This document shows, piece by piece, positions 49,485 through 58,366 of a stretch of DNA of 64,000 nucleotides (position 1 is the stretch's first letter; the number at the start of each line of letters is the position of its first letter). Both the position numbers and the translations under genes were made by a program. The DNA comes from Myxococcus stipitatus (lineage in GTDB: Bacteria; Myxococcota; Myxococcia; Myxococcales; Myxococcaceae), in the NCBI RefSeq assembly GCF_037414475.1, contig NZ_CP147913.1, forward strand, positions 9,434,501 to 9,498,500, written 5' to 3'. The notes beneath the pieces are model-generated. The model was not told the DNA's origin. It did not search any database and saw only the letters and a program-made list of their open reading frames with translations.

Positions 49485-49892
49485 ATGTCCAGTGAGTTCC
49501 AACCCACCGGTTCGCCTTCGGCCATGCGCTGGATTCCCGTACGGGGAGACAGCATGTGGCCGTCGCTGCGGTCGGGGGACCTGGCTGGAGTGGCGCCGCT
49601 GACGCGGGAGCCCCGGCCGGGTGAGGTGGTGCTGGCGCGTTTCGACGATGCGCTGGTGCTGCACCGGGTCCAGGCACTGCGCCAAGGCCATTGGTCACTG
49701 CGAGGTGACAATGCGCCGGGCGAGGACCCGCCGATTGCCCCTTCTCGAATTCTTGGAACGGTGCTGCGAGTGCGGCGGGGCGGCGTGGAGCTGGGCGAGG
49801 AGTGGGACCAGGGGCCGTCTCGGCTGGGGCGCGTCCGCGCGGTGGTGCGTGGCTGGGTGGCGCGGTGGTTGGGGCGGGGAGGGCGCTCATGA
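49485..49892 (+). CDS. Soluble S26B-type serine peptidase (signal-peptidase-like)
   Basis: A 135-residue protein. It has the signal peptidase box B VRGDSMWPSL with the catalytic Ser, box C (SGDLAGV), a box-D-like VLHRVQAL in which His replaces Lys, and box E RGDNAPGEDPPI. The Ser-His-Asp set is that of the ER/SipW-type (S26B) peptidases. There is no hydrophobic N-terminal anchor, unlike real signal peptidases, so it is probably cytoplasmic. Small soluble S24/S26 proteins of this kind occur next to PqqD-like genes; I infer a leader or peptide peptidase role. Its stop overlaps the PqqD-like gene by four bases. Confidence 0.82.
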   Translation: MSSEFQPTGSPSAMRWIPVRGDSMWPSLRSGDLAGVAPLTREPRPGEVVLARFDDALVLHRVQALRQGHWSLRGDNAPGEDPPIAPSRILGTVLRVRRGGVELGEEWDQGPSRLGRVRAVVRGWVARWLGRGGRS

Positions 49893-50185
49893 GCAGTGGC
49901 TTCGGGGCGGACTGTGTTCCCCGTCGCCGCGCTGGTGCGGAAGGGCAGCGCTTTGGCGCGGACTTCATCTTGCTGGACGCGGAGGGCCGCACGCTGCGGG
50001 GCCTCAATGCGACGGCGGTGCGAATCTGGGAGCTCAGTGACGGGACGCGCTCGGCGCGCTCGGTGGCCGAGGTCGTGGCCCGCGAGTTCTCCGTGGACGT
50101 GGCGCAGGCGCTCACGGACACGCTGCGATTTCTCTCGGAGTTGGCCCGGCTGGGCCTCATCGACGAGCTTCAGGAGGTACGGTGA
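49889..50185 (+). CDS. PqqD/RRE-like protein
   Basis: A 98-residue protein. Residues 30-98 are the PqqD domain: LLDAEGRTLRGLNATAVRIWELSDG, then SVAEVVAREFSVDVAQA, and LRFLSELARLGLIDEL. This winged-helix fold is the RiPP recognition element, which binds the leader of a peptide precursor. The first 30 residues are a linker. ATG 49889 lies in a four-base overlap with the peptidase gene, and its stop shares a base with the lipoprotein ATG. There is no radical-SAM or lasso cyclase partner, so the modifying enzyme, if any, must be different. Confidence 0.88.
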   Translation: MSSGFGADCVPRRRAGAEGQRFGADFILLDAEGRTLRGLNATAVRIWELSDGTRSARSVAEVVAREFSVDVAQALTDTLRFLSELARLGLIDELQEVR

Positions 50186-50694
50186 TGCGAGCGCGCATAG
50201 CGGGCTTGTCGGCGGCGCTGCTGCTGTCGGCTTGTACAGAGGGGACCCATCCGCCCAAGGGGAGCGATGACCCCGGGGTGGTCGCGCCCGTGGATCCGAC
50301 GGATGTGCTGGGCGAGGGGACCGAAGTGGCCCGGCCGCCGTCCTCGGAGGAGGAGATCGCGGTCGAAGTGCCGACGCCGATGGGCCAGGCCGAAGTGGTG
50401 GGGCTTGCGTCGCGGGGGCTGTCGGACGTGTCCCAAGTGGACGTGGACCTGCGGGTGAGCGGCATCTCCGGCAAGCGCACCGTGGAGGTGGAGTTCGTGT
50501 CCCCGGAGGGACATCCCTACCAGCGGCGCTCCTCGGTCGTGGTGGCGAAACCCGACGCGACGCGGACGTTGCGCTTCTCGATGCCCGTGGCCGGGACGAC
50601 GGTCGCCACATCCCTCATGAGCGGGAAGTGGAGCGTGCGCTTCTTCCTCGATGGGGCGCCGTTGACGACGGCCTCCTTCACCCTGGAGCCGTGA
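50185..50694 (+). CDS. Lipoprotein of the RiPP-like cluster, 169 aa
   Basis: Starts at ATG 50185, with AGGAGG seven bases upstream and ending exactly at the PqqD stop (one base shared). Lipobox LSAC (Cys at about residue 17). A Pro/Asp/Glu-rich linker is followed by a beta-rich domain (VSQVDVDLRVSGISGKRTVEVEFVSPEG) that resembles immunoglobulin-like or fibronectin-like strands. Probably surface- or periplasm-anchored. It is followed directly by the large exported protein. Function unknown. Confidence 0.8.
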   Translation: MRARIAGLSAALLLSACTEGTHPPKGSDDPGVVAPVDPTDVLGEGTEVARPPSSEEEIAVEVPTPMGQAEVVGLASRGLSDVSQVDVDLRVSGISGKRTVEVEFVSPEGHPYQRRSSVVVAKPDATRTLRFSMPVAGTTVATSLMSGKWSVRFFLDGAPLTTASFTLEP

Positions 50695-50695
50695 C

Positions 50696-53600
50696 GTGAG
50701 GCCCGCTTCGATGACACCCGTGAATGCCCACCTCGCCGTGCTCCTCGCCGCCTTGGCCCTGCCGTCGGCGGTGATGGCTCAATCCATGACCCGAAGCGCT
50801 GTCTTCACCGCCCTCGCGGGTCCGGGTGAGAGTCAGGCCACGGTGACGATGGACGAGGTCTCCGAGTTGCGCGTCGAGGTCCGCAACAACACGTGGAGCA
50901 ACTCGCCGAACTACAGGCCCATCAACGAAGTCATCTTCCAGCTCCCGAGTGGCTACACGCTGCTCGAGAGCCCGCCGCCCGCGGGCTGGGCGGCCGAGCA
51001 ATTCACCACGCTGGGGCGCGTGAGGTACTACTTCATCCCCAGCATCCAGTGCGCGGGCGCGGCGGTGGGGCTGGCGATGAACGAGACGGAGACGTTCACG
51101 CTCCGGATGATTCCGTCGGTCGCGGGCACGAACGCCTCCAATCAGCAGTTCTCGGTGCTCGAAGCGAACGAGCAGTGCAGTTGGAATGGGAGCTTCGGCA
51201 CGAACCGGACGAGCACCGCGGCGCGGTGGCTGCGCGTGGGACTGTCCACCCAGGTCGCCATCCAGCCTCGGGTCCTCCCGGTGGGCGATGACTTCACGGC
51301 GCGCCTGGTCATCGAGAACCGCACGTCGCAGACGAGCACCCAGGCCAACATCACCGCGGAGGGACCGTCCACGGGCTCTGGCGGTGTCTCATTCGAGATT
51401 GTCGACCTCGAGCCCGCGAACTTCCGGGTGAGCATTCCGCAGAGAGGGGCTGGCATCCTCGGGGCGCGGGCGACCGTGCAGTCCGCGGGGACCATGGTGG
51501 CCAGTGTCCGCGCCACCAATTCTGGAGGCTCGGTCACCTCGAGCGTGGTCGACACGCGCATGGTGAACGTGGGGGCCCTGGCCGCCGCGGCTGACCTGGA
51601 CGTGGAGCAGGCCTTCACGGGAGAGAGCGTGAAGGTGCGGCTGAGCGTCACCAACACGGCCGCGACGGCGTCGTATCTCGACGTGGTGCCACGGGCTCCC
51701 GTTCTCGTGGGTTCAGCACAAGCCACGTTGACGCAGGGCCCGAATCCGGCGAGCAGCACCCGGTTGGCGCCTGGCACGTCCGCCCACTTTGTCTGGAGCT
51801 ATACGCTGACGGGCGCGGAGTTCTCCGACTACGCCTTCGATGTGCGGGCGGACGCGACCCTGGATGGGGCGGCTGTCAGCACCCCGCTCGTGCGCACCGG
51901 GCGTGGCCGCATCGTGGCTCATCGCCTCAAGGTCAGCCCGTCCGTGCTCGACCCCAGCGTCACGAATCAGACGGTGACCTACACGGTCCAGAACCGGGGC
52001 AGCCAGCCCATCTATCAGGTCACGCTGCTGCGCCCGGCGACGAACTACTTCCGGTTCGCGGCCGGGAGTCCTTCCTCGTCGGGGGGCTGGTCGGTGTCCA
52101 GCAACGCCGCCAGCTTCACGTGGACGGTGGCCAACGGGCAGCCCATCGGGGTGAACCAGGAGCGCAGCTTCACGGTGATGTACTCGAGCCTCACGGCCGT
52201 CACCGCGCCCACCGCGTTCCGCCATCGCATGCACCTGCCGGATGTCTACGCGTCGCAGTCCGCGACGCGCATCGAGGCCCCCGTGACGCTCGCGGGGAGC
52301 GGGACGGCGCCGGAAGTCGAGAGGCTCACCGCGGTGGCTCGGGATGGGAGTGTGACGCTGGCGTGGGACAATCCCGCGTCGCACAACGGAGTGTTGGTGC
52401 TGCGTGCGGTGGGGAGCGCGCCCAGCACGCCGCCTGTCTCCGGACGGACCTATGCCGAGGGGGCGACCTTGGGCAACGCGACGGTGGTCCTCTCGGAGAC
52501 GTTCTCCAGCACCTCGTCCTTCGTCGACACGGGCGTCACCAACGGCACGACGTACTACTACCGGGTGTTCAACGCGGACGACGCGGGCATCTATTCAGCG
52601 GGCAACCGGCCGACGTCCGCGGCGCTCAAGGCGACGCCTCGGGCTCGCGTGGGGGCCGAACCGCTTTGGTGCTACTCCGTGGGCGTGGACGCTCGCATCC
52701 AACCCATCACCGAGCTGGGCGTGGGCATCTTCAGCTCGTTCGACAACACCCTCGTCGCCAACCTCACCCAGGTCTCGAACCCCGCCGCCGATGGCGCCGA
52801 GCGGTGGCGTCCGCTGCAACTGGGCGCTCCCATCGGCAGCCGTTTCCCGGTGGTTCCTCTGCGCGGACTGCCTGGACAGTACATCCTCACCGCGGACCAG
52901 GACGGCGTGGCCTACGCCATCAGCGCCGCCACGGGGACGGTGCTGTGGCGCTGGACCAACAACGGGGCGCCCATCGGGACCATCCAGTCCTTCCCCGTCA
53001 CCCAGCTCCATGACTACGCGAACGCCGCGTACCAGGCGGCGCGTCCCGGCCAGGACCTCGTCTTCTTCGCGACGCGGTTGACCAACCCGGCGCTCAACAG
53101 GGTGGTGGCGCTGAACGCGGGGACGGGGCTGCCTGTCTTCACCTACCAGCCGGGTGACCTGGGCATGGTCAATGGCGGCATGGTGGTCGACTACGCCAAC
53201 AACCTGCTGTTCGTGGGCGGGAAGGTGAATGGCGGCTCGGCGGCCTCGTTGCGCGTGCTGAACACGCTCACCGGCGCCGAGGTGGCGCGCCTGTCACTCG
53301 GGGACCTGGAGCACAGCCTGGTCCGCAATGGAGTGACGGGGCATATCCTCGCGACCAACAGCGATGGCGTGGTCCATGCCGTCGACCCGGTCACCCGCCA
53401 GATTGTGTGGAGCCTGAACGTCGCGACGCGGCCCGCGCCAAGTACGCCTGCCTTCACCAGCTTCGTTCGTCCGCTGGGCGGAGGCTTCGTGGCCAGCCTG
53501 GCCAGTGGCCACGTGGAGTTCTGGGACTACGCGGCGCCCGGGGCGGCCGTGCCCACGCGCATGTGGTCCACGGCCGTCGCGAATCCCTCGGGCACCTTCA

Positions 53601-53812
53601 CCCTCAACCGCAACGGCGTGGTCCGCATCTACGTCGGCGGTGGCGACGGCAAGGTCCATCAACTCGAGATGGTCGGTGGCGCGGACACGGCGCAGGTGAC
53701 GCTGAACACGGGCCTGCGCATCGGCACGCCGACCATCGACACGACTTCCTCCCGGCTGCATGTGGGCTCCGAGGACGGCCTCATCTGCTCCTTCCCGGTA
53801 CCGTTCCCATGA
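50696..53812 (+). CDS. Large exported protein with Ig-like repeats, FN3 domain and PQQ-type beta-propeller
   Basis: A 1038-residue protein with a signal peptide cleaved near VMA-QS (about residue 28). Residues 30-520 are repeated beta-sandwich modules (CARDB/DUF11-like, for example AADLDVEQAFTGESVKVRLSVTN). A fibronectin type III domain lies at about 540-645 (GTTYYYRVFNADDAG). Residues 650-1038 form a beta-propeller with repeats such as DQDGVAYAISAATGTVLWRW and NSDGVVHAVDPVTRQIVWSL, the sequence pattern of PQQ-binding-like (YncE/BamB-like) blades. No catalytic residues are evident. Likely secreted or surface-exposed. Start GTG 50696; ATG 50711 is possible. It overlaps the peptide gene by four bases. 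Confidence 0.85.
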   Translation: MRPASMTPVNAHLAVLLAALALPSAVMAQSMTRSAVFTALAGPGESQATVTMDEVSELRVEVRNNTWSNSPNYRPINEVIFQLPSGYTLLESPPPAGWAAEQFTTLGRVRYYFIPSIQCAGAAVGLAMNETETFTLRMIPSVAGTNASNQQFSVLEANEQCSWNGSFGTNRTSTAARWLRVGLSTQVAIQPRVLPVGDDFTARLVIENRTSQTSTQANITAEGPSTGSGGVSFEIVDLEPANFRVSIPQRGAGILGARATVQSAGTMVASVRATNSGGSVTSSVVDTRMVNVGALAAAADLDVEQAFTGESVKVRLSVTNTAATASYLDVVPRAPVLVGSAQATLTQGPNPASSTRLAPGTSAHFVWSYTLTGAEFSDYAFDVRADATLDGAAVSTPLVRTGRGRIVAHRLKVSPSVLDPSVTNQTVTYTVQNRGSQPIYQVTLLRPATNYFRFAAGSPSSSGGWSVSSNAASFTWTVANGQPIGVNQERSFTVMYSSLTAVTAPTAFRHRMHLPDVYASQSATRIEAPVTLAGSGTAPEVERLTAVARDGSVTLAWDNPASHNGVLVLRAVGSAPSTPPVSGRTYAEGATLGNATVVLSETFSSTSSFVDTGVTNGTTYYYRVFNADDAGIYSAGNRPTSAALKATPRARVGAEPLWCYSVGVDARIQPITELGVGIFSSFDNTLVANLTQVSNPAADGAERWRPLQLGAPIGSRFPVVPLRGLPGQYILTADQDGVAYAISAATGTVLWRWTNNGAPIGTIQSFPVTQLHDYANAAYQAARPGQDLVFFATRLTNPALNRVVALNAGTGLPVFTYQPGDLGMVNGGMVVDYANNLLFVGGKVNGGSAASLRVLNTLTGAEVARLSLGDLEHSLVRNGVTGHILATNSDGVVHAVDPVTRQIVWSLNVATRPAPSTPAFTSFVRPLGGGFVASLASGHVEFWDYAAPGAAVPTRMWSTAVANPSGTFTLNRNGVVRIYVGGGDGKVHQLEMVGGADTAQVTLNTGLRIGTPTIDTTSSRLHVGSEDGLICSFPVPFP

Positions 53813-53991
53813 CCCGATCTTCGTCGACACCTCCTTCTTCACGGTCACTCGCGGTGGATTCGCTTCGAGACGTGCGCCCGGATGTCGCTCCTCGCTATGA
53901 GGCGCCGGCCATCCTGTGGGAGCAGCCCTTCGTCGCGCTCGCGATGATGTCGCAGTGCAACATCCCGGGCGAATCGGAGTGCACGCCCTGA
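53809..53991 (+). CDS. Candidate RiPP precursor peptide, 60 aa
   Basis: A 60-codon gene, start ATG 53809 in an ATGA overlap with the large exported gene. The peptide has a Ser-rich, variable first half, then RYEAPAILWEQPF and a short C-terminal core MMSQCNIPGESECTP with two cysteines. The segment Y-E-A-P-A-I-L-W-E-Q-P-F fits the YxxPxLxxxGxF-type leader motif recognised by PqqD-like elements in lasso peptides at Tyr, Pro, the aliphatic and the Phe positions, but lacks the Gly. Together with the neighbouring PqqD-like gene this makes it a candidate precursor. No homologue has been checked. Confidence 0.6.
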   Translation: MTRSSSTPPSSRSLAVDSLRDVRPDVAPRYEAPAILWEQPFVALAMMSQCNIPGESECTP

Positions 53992-54869
53992 GTCCGTCGG
54001 GTGCCGGTCCCTCCGGTCCCCAGGGTCCGGGGCCGTCGGGCCCCTGGCTCACGATTGCGGGATGGACCGTGGGCCTCCACGTCCCGGACTCCCGCGTTCA
54101 GTCGCAGCTTCGCCGTTCGCTCGCGGGCTTCATCACGCCCCGGCCTCCACCGGGTGTCCGGGCCGCGGTGCTCGAAGTCCTCGCCCCCTCGGTGGCCCGC
54201 CCCGAGCCCGCGACTCGAGAGATTCCTCGTCCCTGGCGCGCGGAGGATGGCGCGCTCGTGCTGGAGGGGGAGGACTATTCGGCGCGGCTCGATGCGGACG
54301 GCCTGCATGGCGAAGTGGTGGGAACCGGCCGTTTCCCCGTGGAGGTGGTGCTGCGGGTCATGCTGGCCGCGGAGCTTCGCCAGCGGGACGGATTGCTGGT
54401 GCATGGCGTGGCGCTCATGCACGGAGAAGAGGCCGCGCTGTTCACGGGCCACTCCGGCGCGGGGAAGAGCACCCTGGGCGGGTTGTGGATGGACGCGGGG
54501 GAGTCACTGCTCTCGGATGAGTTGGTGGCCGTCTGGCCCAAGGCGCTGAGTGGCCAGGCTCCGCGTCGATGGAGAGTAGCCGGGACGCCTTGGAACGTGG
54601 GGTTCCCTCGTGAGGCGAACCTGCGCGCGGTGGGGACCCTGGGCTGGGATTCGAGCTCCCGTTGGGAGCGGCAAGGGGCGGGGGAGGTGGGACGGATGCT
54701 GGTGCAGAACGTCCTGCTGTGCGAAGCCTCGGGGGCGGGGCGCGCGGCGATGCTCTCCTCGGCGGGCAGGCTGTTGACGGAGGTGGAGCCGGCGCGATTG
54801 GTGTTTGCTCGGGATGCCTCGGCGGTGGTCGTGGTGCGCGAGGCCTTGGGAGCGGCGGCACATGGGTGA
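53979..54869 (+). CDS. HprK-like peptide or protein kinase
   Basis: A 296-residue protein starting at GTG 53979, 13 bases inside the peptide gene. The first 150 residues are a beta-rich N-terminal part. The kinase core has FTGHSGAGKSTLGGLW (P-loop at 157-164), then ESLLSDELVAVWP, the pattern of HPr kinase/phosphorylase-like proteins, and a C-terminal region with ARLVFARD. Members of this fold are known to phosphorylate a Ser in some lasso peptides and occur with PqqD-like proteins. I infer that it modifies or is regulated by the adjacent peptide. It overlaps the miaA gene by eight bases. Confidence 0.8.
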   Translation: MHALSPSGAGPSGPQGPGPSGPWLTIAGWTVGLHVPDSRVQSQLRRSLAGFITPRPPPGVRAAVLEVLAPSVARPEPATREIPRPWRAEDGALVLEGEDYSARLDADGLHGEVVGTGRFPVEVVLRVMLAAELRQRDGLLVHGVALMHGEEAALFTGHSGAGKSTLGGLWMDAGESLLSDELVAVWPKALSGQAPRRWRVAGTPWNVGFPREANLRAVGTLGWDSSSRWERQGAGEVGRMLVQNVLLCEASGAGRAAMLSSAGRLLTEVEPARLVFARDASAVVVVREALGAAAHG

Positions 54870-56579: not shown

Positions 56580-58319
56580 TCAGGACGCGGCGTAGCGATC
56601 CGACGTGCCCCCATCCCCAGGCAGTCGCGCCGGCGAGGGCTCCGACGACGTGCTCGACGCGGGCATGCGTCCGGTGAGGATGCGCAGGAGTCGCTCCGGG
56701 TCCACGGGCTTGGGAAGGAATGCCTCCGCCCCCGCATCGAGCGCCCGCTGCCGGACATGGGGCCGATTCAGTCCGCTCATCACCACCACGCGAGTGCCTC
56801 GCGTGAGCGGGTGTTGCTTCAGGCCTTCGCACAGCCGGAGTCCATCCACCCAGTGCAGCACGACGTCGAGGAGGATGGCCGTGGGAGGCCTGCGAGCCAC
56901 CGCGCAGAAGAGCGCCAGCTCATCCGCGAAAGACACCACCTTGGCGCCCGTGCTCTCCAGGAGCGCTGTCAGCGCCTCACGTGCATCGGGGTCGTCGTCC
57001 ACGACGTAGTACAGGTCCGGCTCCAGGTCCGGCACCGCCATGGGCACCGGGTCCATGGTCGTCCGCAACCAGGAGCCCACCACCTCGCGCAGGCCCGCCC
57101 AGCGCACCGCGCCTAACAAGGCCAGGGGCGTGGGAGCGCTGAGTCCCAGCACTCCGCCTCCGTAGATGCCCAGGGACGTGCGCCGCCCCTTGGCCGCGAG
57201 GAAGGCCGAGGGCGCCCGCTTGCCGGCGCGCCGCATCCAGGACACCGAGCGCGCGCCGGCCGCCGCGTCCTCCATCAGCTCGCACAGTCCCTCGCGGACA
57301 TAGCGGCGCTCCAAGGCCGAGGCCTCCAGCCCACCATCCAGGAGCGCCACCGCCGCCCGGCTGCACGAGGCGAGTGTCTCCGAGAGCCCCAACTGGAGCG
57401 GATGCCCGAACGCCGCGGGCCCCACGGCGAGCTGGCACGGCGCGACGAGCGTGCGGCCCGGACCATGGGGCAGGCGGGTGGTCTCGAGCGCGGCGAGCTC
57501 GAAGCCCTCGTTCAGCAGGCCATCCCGCGAGGCCATCATCAGCGCCTGGCACAGGTCGGCGGGAGTCACGGCGGGCCCGAAGGCCAGGGCATAGACCGAG
57601 TCCACACCGGGCAGGAGGAACAACCCATCCACCGTGGGGAGCGGCGCCACCCACAGCCGAGCGACGGGGGCGATCTCCAGACGGGACGACGCATGTCTTA
57701 GCCGGGCCTGGACCGCGGGCATCGTGGGCGCGGGCCGGAAGCCAGGGAAGAACGCGTCCCCCAGGAGCGGGCCCGCCCCCGAGGCGAGGGCGACGGCGTG
57801 GTAGCGCTCTCCGCTTCCCTGCGCGCGGACCACCATGGGGCCGGTGCCTCGCACGGCGATAGGGGCGTCCGGAGCAGGGGGCTGTCGCTCCACCCGGTCG
57901 ACGTGCCTGTCGACGAACCGGGCCCCTTGAGCGCTGGCGGCGTTGGTGAGGATGCCGCGAACGTGCGCCATGCCTCCTTCACCCGAGGGCCAACCATCGA
58001 CGAGCCACATGCCGCCGGGAGAGGAGGGGAGGAGCTCACGACGGCCCTCCGCGATGATCTCCACCCCTCGGAGCTCGAGCGTGCGCCACTCGGCGGGGAT
58101 GCGGCAGCCCAGCGCCGCCAGCCGCGAGCGGCACTCGGGAGTGAGGACGACAGGGGGCGAGGTCCGCTCCGACATGCCCCCGGCATAGACGCGTACGTCC
58201 AGCGTCAGCCCCCGCGCCCGACCATTGAAGAGCAGGGAGGCCGCCAATCCCGCTCCCGCGATGCCGCCCCCGACGATTGCAACCCTCGAACCGCTCGCCA
58301 GCCTGTTGCCTAGAGTCAT
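56580..58319 (-). CDS. FAD-dependent oxidoreductase fused to a C-terminal receiver domain
   Basis: A 579-residue two-part protein. The first 430 residues are a Rossmann FAD enzyme: the GGGIAGAG dinucleotide site is at about residues 17-24, followed by an FAD-linked fold of the geranylgeranyl-reductase or squalene-monooxygenase type (GPMVVRAQGSGERYHAVALASGAGP, LLPGVDSVYALAFGP). Residues about 440-560 are a receiver domain: acidic pocket VVDDDPDA, phosphoacceptor Asp485 in AILLDVVLHW, and Lys in AFLPKPVD. All receiver residues are conserved. No DNA-binding domain follows. It starts at ATG 58319 with GAGGG upstream, 47 bases after the REC-GGDEF gene, so it is in its operon. Confidence 0.88.
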   Translation of the reverse strand: MTLGNRLASGSRVAIVGGGIAGAGLAASLLFNGRARGLTLDVRVYAGGMSERTSPPVVLTPECRSRLAALGCRIPAEWRTLELRGVEIIAEGRRELLPSSPGGMWLVDGWPSGEGGMAHVRGILTNAASAQGARFVDRHVDRVERQPPAPDAPIAVRGTGPMVVRAQGSGERYHAVALASGAGPLLGDAFFPGFRPAPTMPAVQARLRHASSRLEIAPVARLWVAPLPTVDGLFLLPGVDSVYALAFGPAVTPADLCQALMMASRDGLLNEGFELAALETTRLPHGPGRTLVAPCQLAVGPAAFGHPLQLGLSETLASCSRAAVALLDGGLEASALERRYVREGLCELMEDAAAGARSVSWMRRAGKRAPSAFLAAKGRRTSLGIYGGGVLGLSAPTPLALLGAVRWAGLREVVGSWLRTTMDPVPMAVPDLEPDLYYVVDDDPDAREALTALLESTGAKVVSFADELALFCAVARRPPTAILLDVVLHWVDGLRLCEGLKQHPLTRGTRVVVMSGLNRPHVRQRALDAGAEAFLPKPVDPERLLRILTGRMPASSTSSEPSPARLPGDGGTSDRYAAS

Positions 58320-58366
58320 CCGCGCCCTCTTGCTTCCCACCGTCGCCTGCTTGCCGGGCACCGCGC

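Follow-up and report, generated by a model that had tools for sequence, protein, structure and literature searches.

We identified a six-gene operon in Myxococcus stipitatus that probably makes a short phosphopeptide by a RiPP pathway resembling that of the linear polyphosphorylated peptides (LPPs); two co-encoded exported proteins may be partners of this peptide in the envelope or at the cell surface. LPPs were described in May 2026 from Paenibacillus alginolyticus (lppA-K-B-S-D-N), and an RRE, an HprK-like kinase, an SpI-like peptidase, and a YxxP precursor form their defining biosynthetic core (PMC13381572). An earlier note on this DNA had proposed an uncharacterized RiPP-type or peptide-kinase system. 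That reading was largely right and is supported here, and of the chemistry it suggested, phosphorylation or proteolysis of a peptide has the best support; the word "uncharacterized" no longer applies, as the core mechanism matches the published LPP family (PMC13381572).

The operon lies in the window, the 64,000-nucleotide stretch of contig NZ_CP147913.1 analyzed here. All six genes are on the plus strand and each junction is an overlap or a 1-bp gap, confirming the overlapping same-strand cluster described previously. They encode, in order, a soluble S26-like serine peptidase of the SpI-like (S26B/archaeal) type (49485–49892), a discrete PqqD-like RRE (49889–50185), a lipoprotein (50185–50694), a 1038-residue Sec-exported protein (50696–53812), a 60-residue precursor peptide (53809–53991), and an HprK/PEPCK-fold kinase (53979–54869). 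ATGA overlaps join the peptidase gene to the PqqD-like gene (49889) and the gene of the 1038-residue protein to the peptide gene (53809). The most likely kinase start is GTG 53979, with GTG 53916 upstream as a possible alternative. Because the end of the kinase gene (54869) overlaps the start of miaA (ATG 54862), the operon probably continues into miaA. As the earlier note had stated for radical SAM, YcaO, lanthipeptide, and lasso cyclase genes, no radical SAM, YcaO, LanC, or Asn-synthase domain was found in the ten neighboring window ORFs scanned, and the operon and these neighbors lack an MsbA-like ABC exporter and an NTP transferase. The anatomy of the locus is firm, its chemistry putative.

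The C-terminal 31 residues of the peptide are nearly invariant (YEAPAILWEQPFVALA/xxSxCxIPGESECxP, with the slash at the proposed cleavage site), and about the first 28–29 residues are variable. The pN/pS ratio was 0.28 over the C-terminal 31 codons compared with about 0.6 in the N-terminal 29, and from these sequence comparisons the C-terminal half is under purifying selection. Given this selection and the conservation of the frame, the ORF is not a chance one. Its landmarks are a YxxP leader motif (Y30–P33) and the core MMSQCNIPGESECTP, which reads QISQCNIPGESECIP in related Myxococcus and contains a conserved Cys pair. We propose cleavage after A45 and phosphorylation at S48, by sequence register with the LPPs, in which the phosphosite is Ser at +3 (PMC13381572).

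When the LPP precursor motif YxxPxVLxHQxIxFET/xxS is aligned with the operon peptide (YEAPAILWEQPFVALA/MMS), Tyr, Pro, Leu, Gln, and Ser fall in register, Ile replaces Val, and Ala occupies −1, where the LPP search motif permits Thr or Ala (PMC13381572). The positions common to both are Y-16, P-13, a hydrophobic residue at −11, L-10, Q-7, A-1, and S+3, and the LPP residues H-8, F-3, and E-2 are unmatched. Cleavage of LppA requires F-3 E-2 T-1 (PMC13381572), whereas the Myxococcus peptide carries A-3 L-2 A-1 before the proposed cut. Position −1 is Ala, Gly, or Thr in 14/14 divergent Myxococcota peptides and +3 is Ser or Thr in 12/14, a register with a shuffle p of about 1e-4 (any offset, eight representatives, kinship ignored). 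An insertion shifts the Ser off +3 in one orthologue (L060), and some peptides of family f11 have Gly at this position. A PDB search with the peptide profile gave no match.

The peptide was present in 27/27 Myxococcus genomes searched, M. xanthus among them, and in sister genera. The order hisS–[six genes]–miaA holds at 26 of the loci read, and in three genomes (G003, G005, and G034) the block is cleanly absent and hisS adjoins miaA. Inheritance of the locus is largely vertical, and the core is near-invariant in two genera. The earlier note had made its proposal depend on a conserved peptide frame and on the co-occurrence of PqqD-like and HprK-like genes with a short peptide gene. We found the frame conserved wherever its neighbors are. 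Close kinase orthologues (E < 1e-34) are confined to peptide-bearing genomes, and within the family every such genome has one except G087, which carries two propeller-peptide pairs and in which no close kinase was found. Across the phylum, a YxxP peptide ORF precedes the HprK-like kinase at 26/35 Myxococcota loci compared with 18/704 control genes (Fisher p = 1e-28); the motif match at L099 in this comparison is probably a chance frame. Two further peptide matches looked spurious and were rejected, one marginal with no kinase, PqqD, or S26 gene adjacent (L104) and one in a translated frame without the YxxP motif (L066).

The PqqD-like protein matched PF05402 (E = 3e-14) and is the only such match in the 10.3-Mb genome, where it is present in single copy. 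Its profile aligned without gaps to the LppB crystal structure 9x8z (E = 4e-7). In LppB, D70 and N33 hold Y-16 and P-13 of the precursor, and F74 is the pocket divider (PMC13381572). The equivalent N40 and F81 are invariant in 20 RRE orthologues, D77 is conserved in at least 90% of them, and the spacing is identical to that of LppB. The sole peptide with Trp at −16 belongs to locus L058, whose RRE has Glu in place of this Asp. A search of plasmid records for LppB returned no match.

The peptidase sequence lacks an N-terminal membrane segment. It matched PF00717 (Peptidase_S24) above the cut-off (E = 5e-12), and sigpep_I_arch (E = 4e-6) and sod_Ni_protease (E = 2e-7) below their curated cut-offs; S23, H60, D75, and D81 are invariant across 17 orthologues. 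For the kinase, domain models gave weak HprK-related matches only, and a sequence search of the PDB gave none. Its AF2 model (pLDDT 93) has an HprK/PEPCK fold, with HprK/P 1knx as the best Foldseek match and a VIA Z score of 14 to PEPCK. H120, the P-loop GxSGAGKST, whose Lys is K141 in the alignment, and D158–E159 are invariant.

From the gene set, the folds, the catalytic and binding residues, the peptide register, its conservation, and the gain and loss of the block, we infer the following pathway. The RRE would bind the leader of the 60-residue precursor via Y30xxP33, and the HprK-like kinase would phosphorylate the invariant Ser-48 at core position +3. The RRE-bound precursor would be presented to the soluble SpI-like peptidase and cut after Ala-45, which would release a linear, 15-residue, two-Cys core. 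The lipoprotein and the 1038-residue propeller protein, predicted to be exported by Sec, may serve as the envelope or surface partner (receptor, carrier, or target) of the peptide.

The parallels with LPP are an RRE with the N33/D70/F74 equivalents, an HprK-like kinase, an SpI-like leader peptidase, the YxxP leader, the −16/−13/−1/+3 register, and the lack of a cyclase. The peptidase, as proposed leader peptidase, is labeled LppS-like and the kinase, as proposed peptide kinase, LppK-like, both by class and fold; the RRE, the proposed precursor-binding protein, is LppB-like, and the comparison with LppA is with the published motif. In Bacillota, the MsbA-like exporter LppD and the NTP transferase LppN are both core, although deletion of lppN left the products unaltered (PMC13381572); the Myxococcus operon has neither, and the lipoprotein and the propeller protein stand in their place. 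The 15-residue core is near-invariant in Myxococcus whereas LPP cores are variable, and LPPs, stated to be restricted to Bacillota (PMC13381572), are patchy in distribution in contrast to the largely vertical locus in Myxococcota. We do not assign the operon to the LPPs, because it lacks two genes of the LPP core and the RRE could have either ancestry, the lasso RRE TbiB1, its closest solved relative, outscoring LppB in the profile comparison. Rather, by analogy, it looks like an LPP-like pathway outside Bacillota to which genes for two exported proteins, a lipoprotein and a giant one, have been added. We found no myxobacterial HprK/PqqD/SpI system in the literature searched. As described in 2026, the function and final product of LPPs were still unidentified (PMC13381572), and a single-copy version in every Myxococcus genome searched, with a fixed core of predictable mass, offers a genetically tractable test of phosphopeptide function. 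The [M+H]+ computed for the core of the M. stipitatus peptide is 1626.63 without modification, 1706.59 carrying one phosphate, and 1786.56 carrying two, and for the QISQCNIPGESECIP-type core it is 1617.73, or 1697.69 carrying one phosphate.

It is unlikely that the locus is instead an intracellular phospho-switch, in which a phosphorylatable peptide ligand controls synthesis or assembly of the lipoprotein and propeller protein and no product is released. A core near-invariant in two genera is unusual for a secreted bioactive, the operon is without an exporter, the lipoprotein and propeller move with the block, and the two propeller-peptide pairs of G087 lack a close kinase. Against these points, the invariance of the catalytic residues in the leader peptidase and the small residue at −1 imply processing, and the leader and core boundaries match LPP. 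We consider it improbable that a further enzyme, acting for example on the two Cys residues, makes a cyclic or metal-binding RiPP whose phosphorylation is secondary: phosphorylation alone does not account for the Cys pair, and related systems in the phylum (L103, L135, L139, L141, and L151) carry radical SAM genes, but the operon and the scanned neighbors hold no such gene and hisS and miaA bound the block on both sides.

A lasso pathway with its cyclase in trans is very improbable. Phosphorylated lasso peptides of the paeninodin type share an RRE (B1), a YxxP/WxxP leader, and an HprK-like kinase with the operon, and the RRE profile fits TbiB1 best. However, they use a B2 transglutaminase-like protease and a macrolactam (Asn-synthetase-like) cyclase, neither of which was found in the operon or scanned neighbors; the SpI-like peptidase stands in for B2, PF13471 has a single, borderline match in the genome, about 3.6 Mb from the operon, and the only PqqD-domain protein is that of this locus. 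An HprK-related kinase and a PqqD-family protein are likewise paired in the HPr-rel-A system, but the operon proteins fall below both equivalog cut-offs (TIGR04352, 24.9 of 200 bits; TIGR04353, 20.8 of 35 bits). A PQQ-like pathway supplying a quinone to the propeller, evoked by the PqqD name match and the PQQ-like propeller in one operon, is extremely improbable: the conserved peptide lacks the PqqA ExxxY motif, no PqqE-type radical SAM occurs in the operon or scanned neighbors, the PqqD model scores under its equivalog cut-off, and PQQ synthesis uses neither an HprK kinase nor an SpI peptidase.

Orthologues of the two exported proteins accompany the peptide. The lipoprotein has a lipobox (LSAC) and one Ig-like β-sandwich domain, modeled by AF2 with pLDDT above 92 across most of residues 61–170. 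Its orthologues are present at all complete loci, with a homologue at family f13 locus L103; a fold search returned generic, low-TM β-sandwich matches only and gave no functional assignment. The 1038-residue protein has a signal peptide, β-rich repeats, and a C-terminal PQQ-like β-propeller (PQQ_2, PF13360, E = 1e-7, residues 697–868), and the syntenic loci carry its orthologues. As a putative partner that recurs, this giant protein gives a specific and testable starting point for finding what such phosphopeptides do. It is possible, although somewhat doubtful, that the peptide is a ligand of this protein and that Myxococcota hold a widespread RRE-kinase-SpI phosphopeptide class. In that case the class would pair a phosphopeptide with a receptor at the surface and would not be a classical natural product. 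The partners in such a system would be of the Ig/propeller type or, in a second, paralogous type, an Ig/FG-GAP lipoprotein.

The earlier note had described six closely spaced genes on one strand, encoding an S26B-type peptidase, a PqqD/RRE-like protein, a lipoprotein, a 1038-aa exported propeller protein, a 60-aa peptide, and an HprK-like kinase. Our analysis upheld both the reality of these genes and their tight packing, with overlaps or a 1-bp gap at the junctions. ATGA overlaps join the peptidase to the RRE gene and the propeller to the peptide gene, the RRE and lipoprotein genes also overlap, and the 1-bp gap precedes the propeller gene. If the kinase starts at the GTG at position 53979, its gene overlaps that of the peptide by 13 bp; it also overlaps miaA. 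The PqqD-domain protein of this operon is the sole one encoded in the 10.3-Mb genome containing the window.

The 60-aa peptide is a real gene. It was present in all 27 genomes of the window's genus, in all genomes of two further genera (16/16 in g6 and 2/2 in g5), and in scattered relatives. Across the phylum, the peptide profile found matches in 57 of 195 genomes, 3 of them marginal. Conservation is nearly complete over the last 31 residues, with free variation in the first part. The C-terminal 31 codons gave a pN/pS of 0.28 over all pairs and of near zero to ~0.2 in most Myxococcus pairs with the window, and the N-terminal 29 codons gave ~0.6 in close pairs.

The six genes are one unit. All six orthologues, in the same order, were recovered in 26 of the 35 loci of the first set compared, and nearly all of these complete loci have the block flanked by hisS and miaA. 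The corresponding empty site, in which hisS directly adjoins miaA, was found in three genomes (G003, G005, and G034; loci L160, L161, and L162), and the genus of the first two, g3, also includes carriers of the block. Close kinase orthologues were confined to peptide-bearing genomes. Within the family, G087 is the peptide-bearing genome in which no close kinase orthologue was found. It has two propeller-peptide pairs (L057, 401-2694, and L063, 3919-5727), each with the peptide directly behind the propeller gene.

Pfam searches assigned the RRE protein to PqqD (E 3e-14), the peptidase to Peptidase_S24 (E 5e-12), and the 1038-aa protein to the PQQ_2 propeller (E 1e-7). In the orthologue alignment of the peptidase, Ser23, His60, Asp75, and Asp81 are all invariant. 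The kinase gave only weak HprK-related matches in the domain-profile search, and its AF2 model (pLDDT 93) had HPr kinase/phosphatase 1knx as the best Foldseek match. The model also aligned with PEPCK (VIA Z 14 over ~240 residues), the fold being common to HprK and PEPCK. The kinase alignment revealed invariant His, P-loop, and Asp-Glu motifs, which match catalytic residues of HprK. The predicted structure of the lipoprotein is a single Ig-like sandwich, for which a fold search returned no specific relative.

These components invite comparison with the linear polyphosphorylated peptides (LPP), in which LppB binds Y-16xxP-13 of the precursor, LppK places several phosphates on Ser+3, and LppS cleaves after T-1 in a reaction requiring the presence of LppB (PMC13381572). 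The 60-aa peptide aligns in register with the LPP precursor, the four positions -16, -13, -1, and +3 corresponding to Y30, P33, A45, and S48. The window RRE retains, at identical spacing, the residues by which LppB holds Y-16 and P-13. Among 14 divergent Myxococcota peptides, position -1 was Ala, Gly, or Thr in every case and position +3 was Ser or Thr in 12. At locus L058 (1882-2425), the peptide has Trp at -16, and Glu replaces the Tyr-binding Asp in its paired RRE; this one example fits a possible co-variation between the two sequences. By analogy, the operon would work like an LPP system, and its predicted product would be a 15-aa phosphopeptide with two Cys residues.

We nevertheless keep the operon out of LPP because neither an exporter nor an NTP transferase was found in the operon or its scanned neighbors, the window peptide does not match the F-E-T that precedes the cut in LPP, and the RRE is only a possible member of the LPP clade. 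The RRE profile matched the lasso RRE TbiB1 (E 3.5e-9) and LppB 9x8z (E 4e-7), as well as PqqD. LPP are described as restricted to Bacillota (PMC13381572); therefore, the operon is either the first LPP-like system from another phylum or a case of convergence.

Further loci came from searching the phylum with the kinase profile. We scored a motif ORF where [YW]xxPx[ILVM], followed by a tail of 19-50 aa, ended at the kinase start. This was the case at 26 of 35 kinase loci, a set that includes seven orthologous loci, versus 18 of 704 control ORFs; among the 26, the hit at L099 probably arose by chance. Three arrangements recur: that of the window, a paralogous Ig/FG-GAP type, and a radical SAM type. 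The paralogous systems of other Myxococcales (L100, 5218-13314; L101, 3012-8933; L147; L149) comprise PqqD, a giant Ig/FG-GAP lipoprotein, a peptide such as YAPPQVRSERILVPDLFTPSCIIDPETGAC, an HprK-like kinase, and an S26-like domain. The protein of 1273-2755 aa precedes the peptide, and in several loci, including L100 and L101, the S26-like domain is fused to GNAT and follows the kinase. Both L100 and L101 also carry an EamA-type transporter gene. Clusters of families f11 and f31 (L133-L139 and L142) encode an HprK-like kinase, S26, PqqD (found in most), and peptides such as YEAPTVTYTEISANEALMGICKGGLGMGPYGPGCPGGCSGGGS; the two that were scanned, L135 and L139, have a radical SAM enzyme gene between PqqD and the peptide. 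At L103 of family f13, the lipoprotein recurs with an exported protein, peptide, kinase, and RRE in a different gene order. That a giant exported protein recurs in these systems suggests that it is a functional partner.

Finally, elsewhere in the window, a 593-aa ORF on the reverse strand (56580-58361), whose long N-terminal part has no Pfam match, carries a C-terminal response-regulator domain (residues 453-561).
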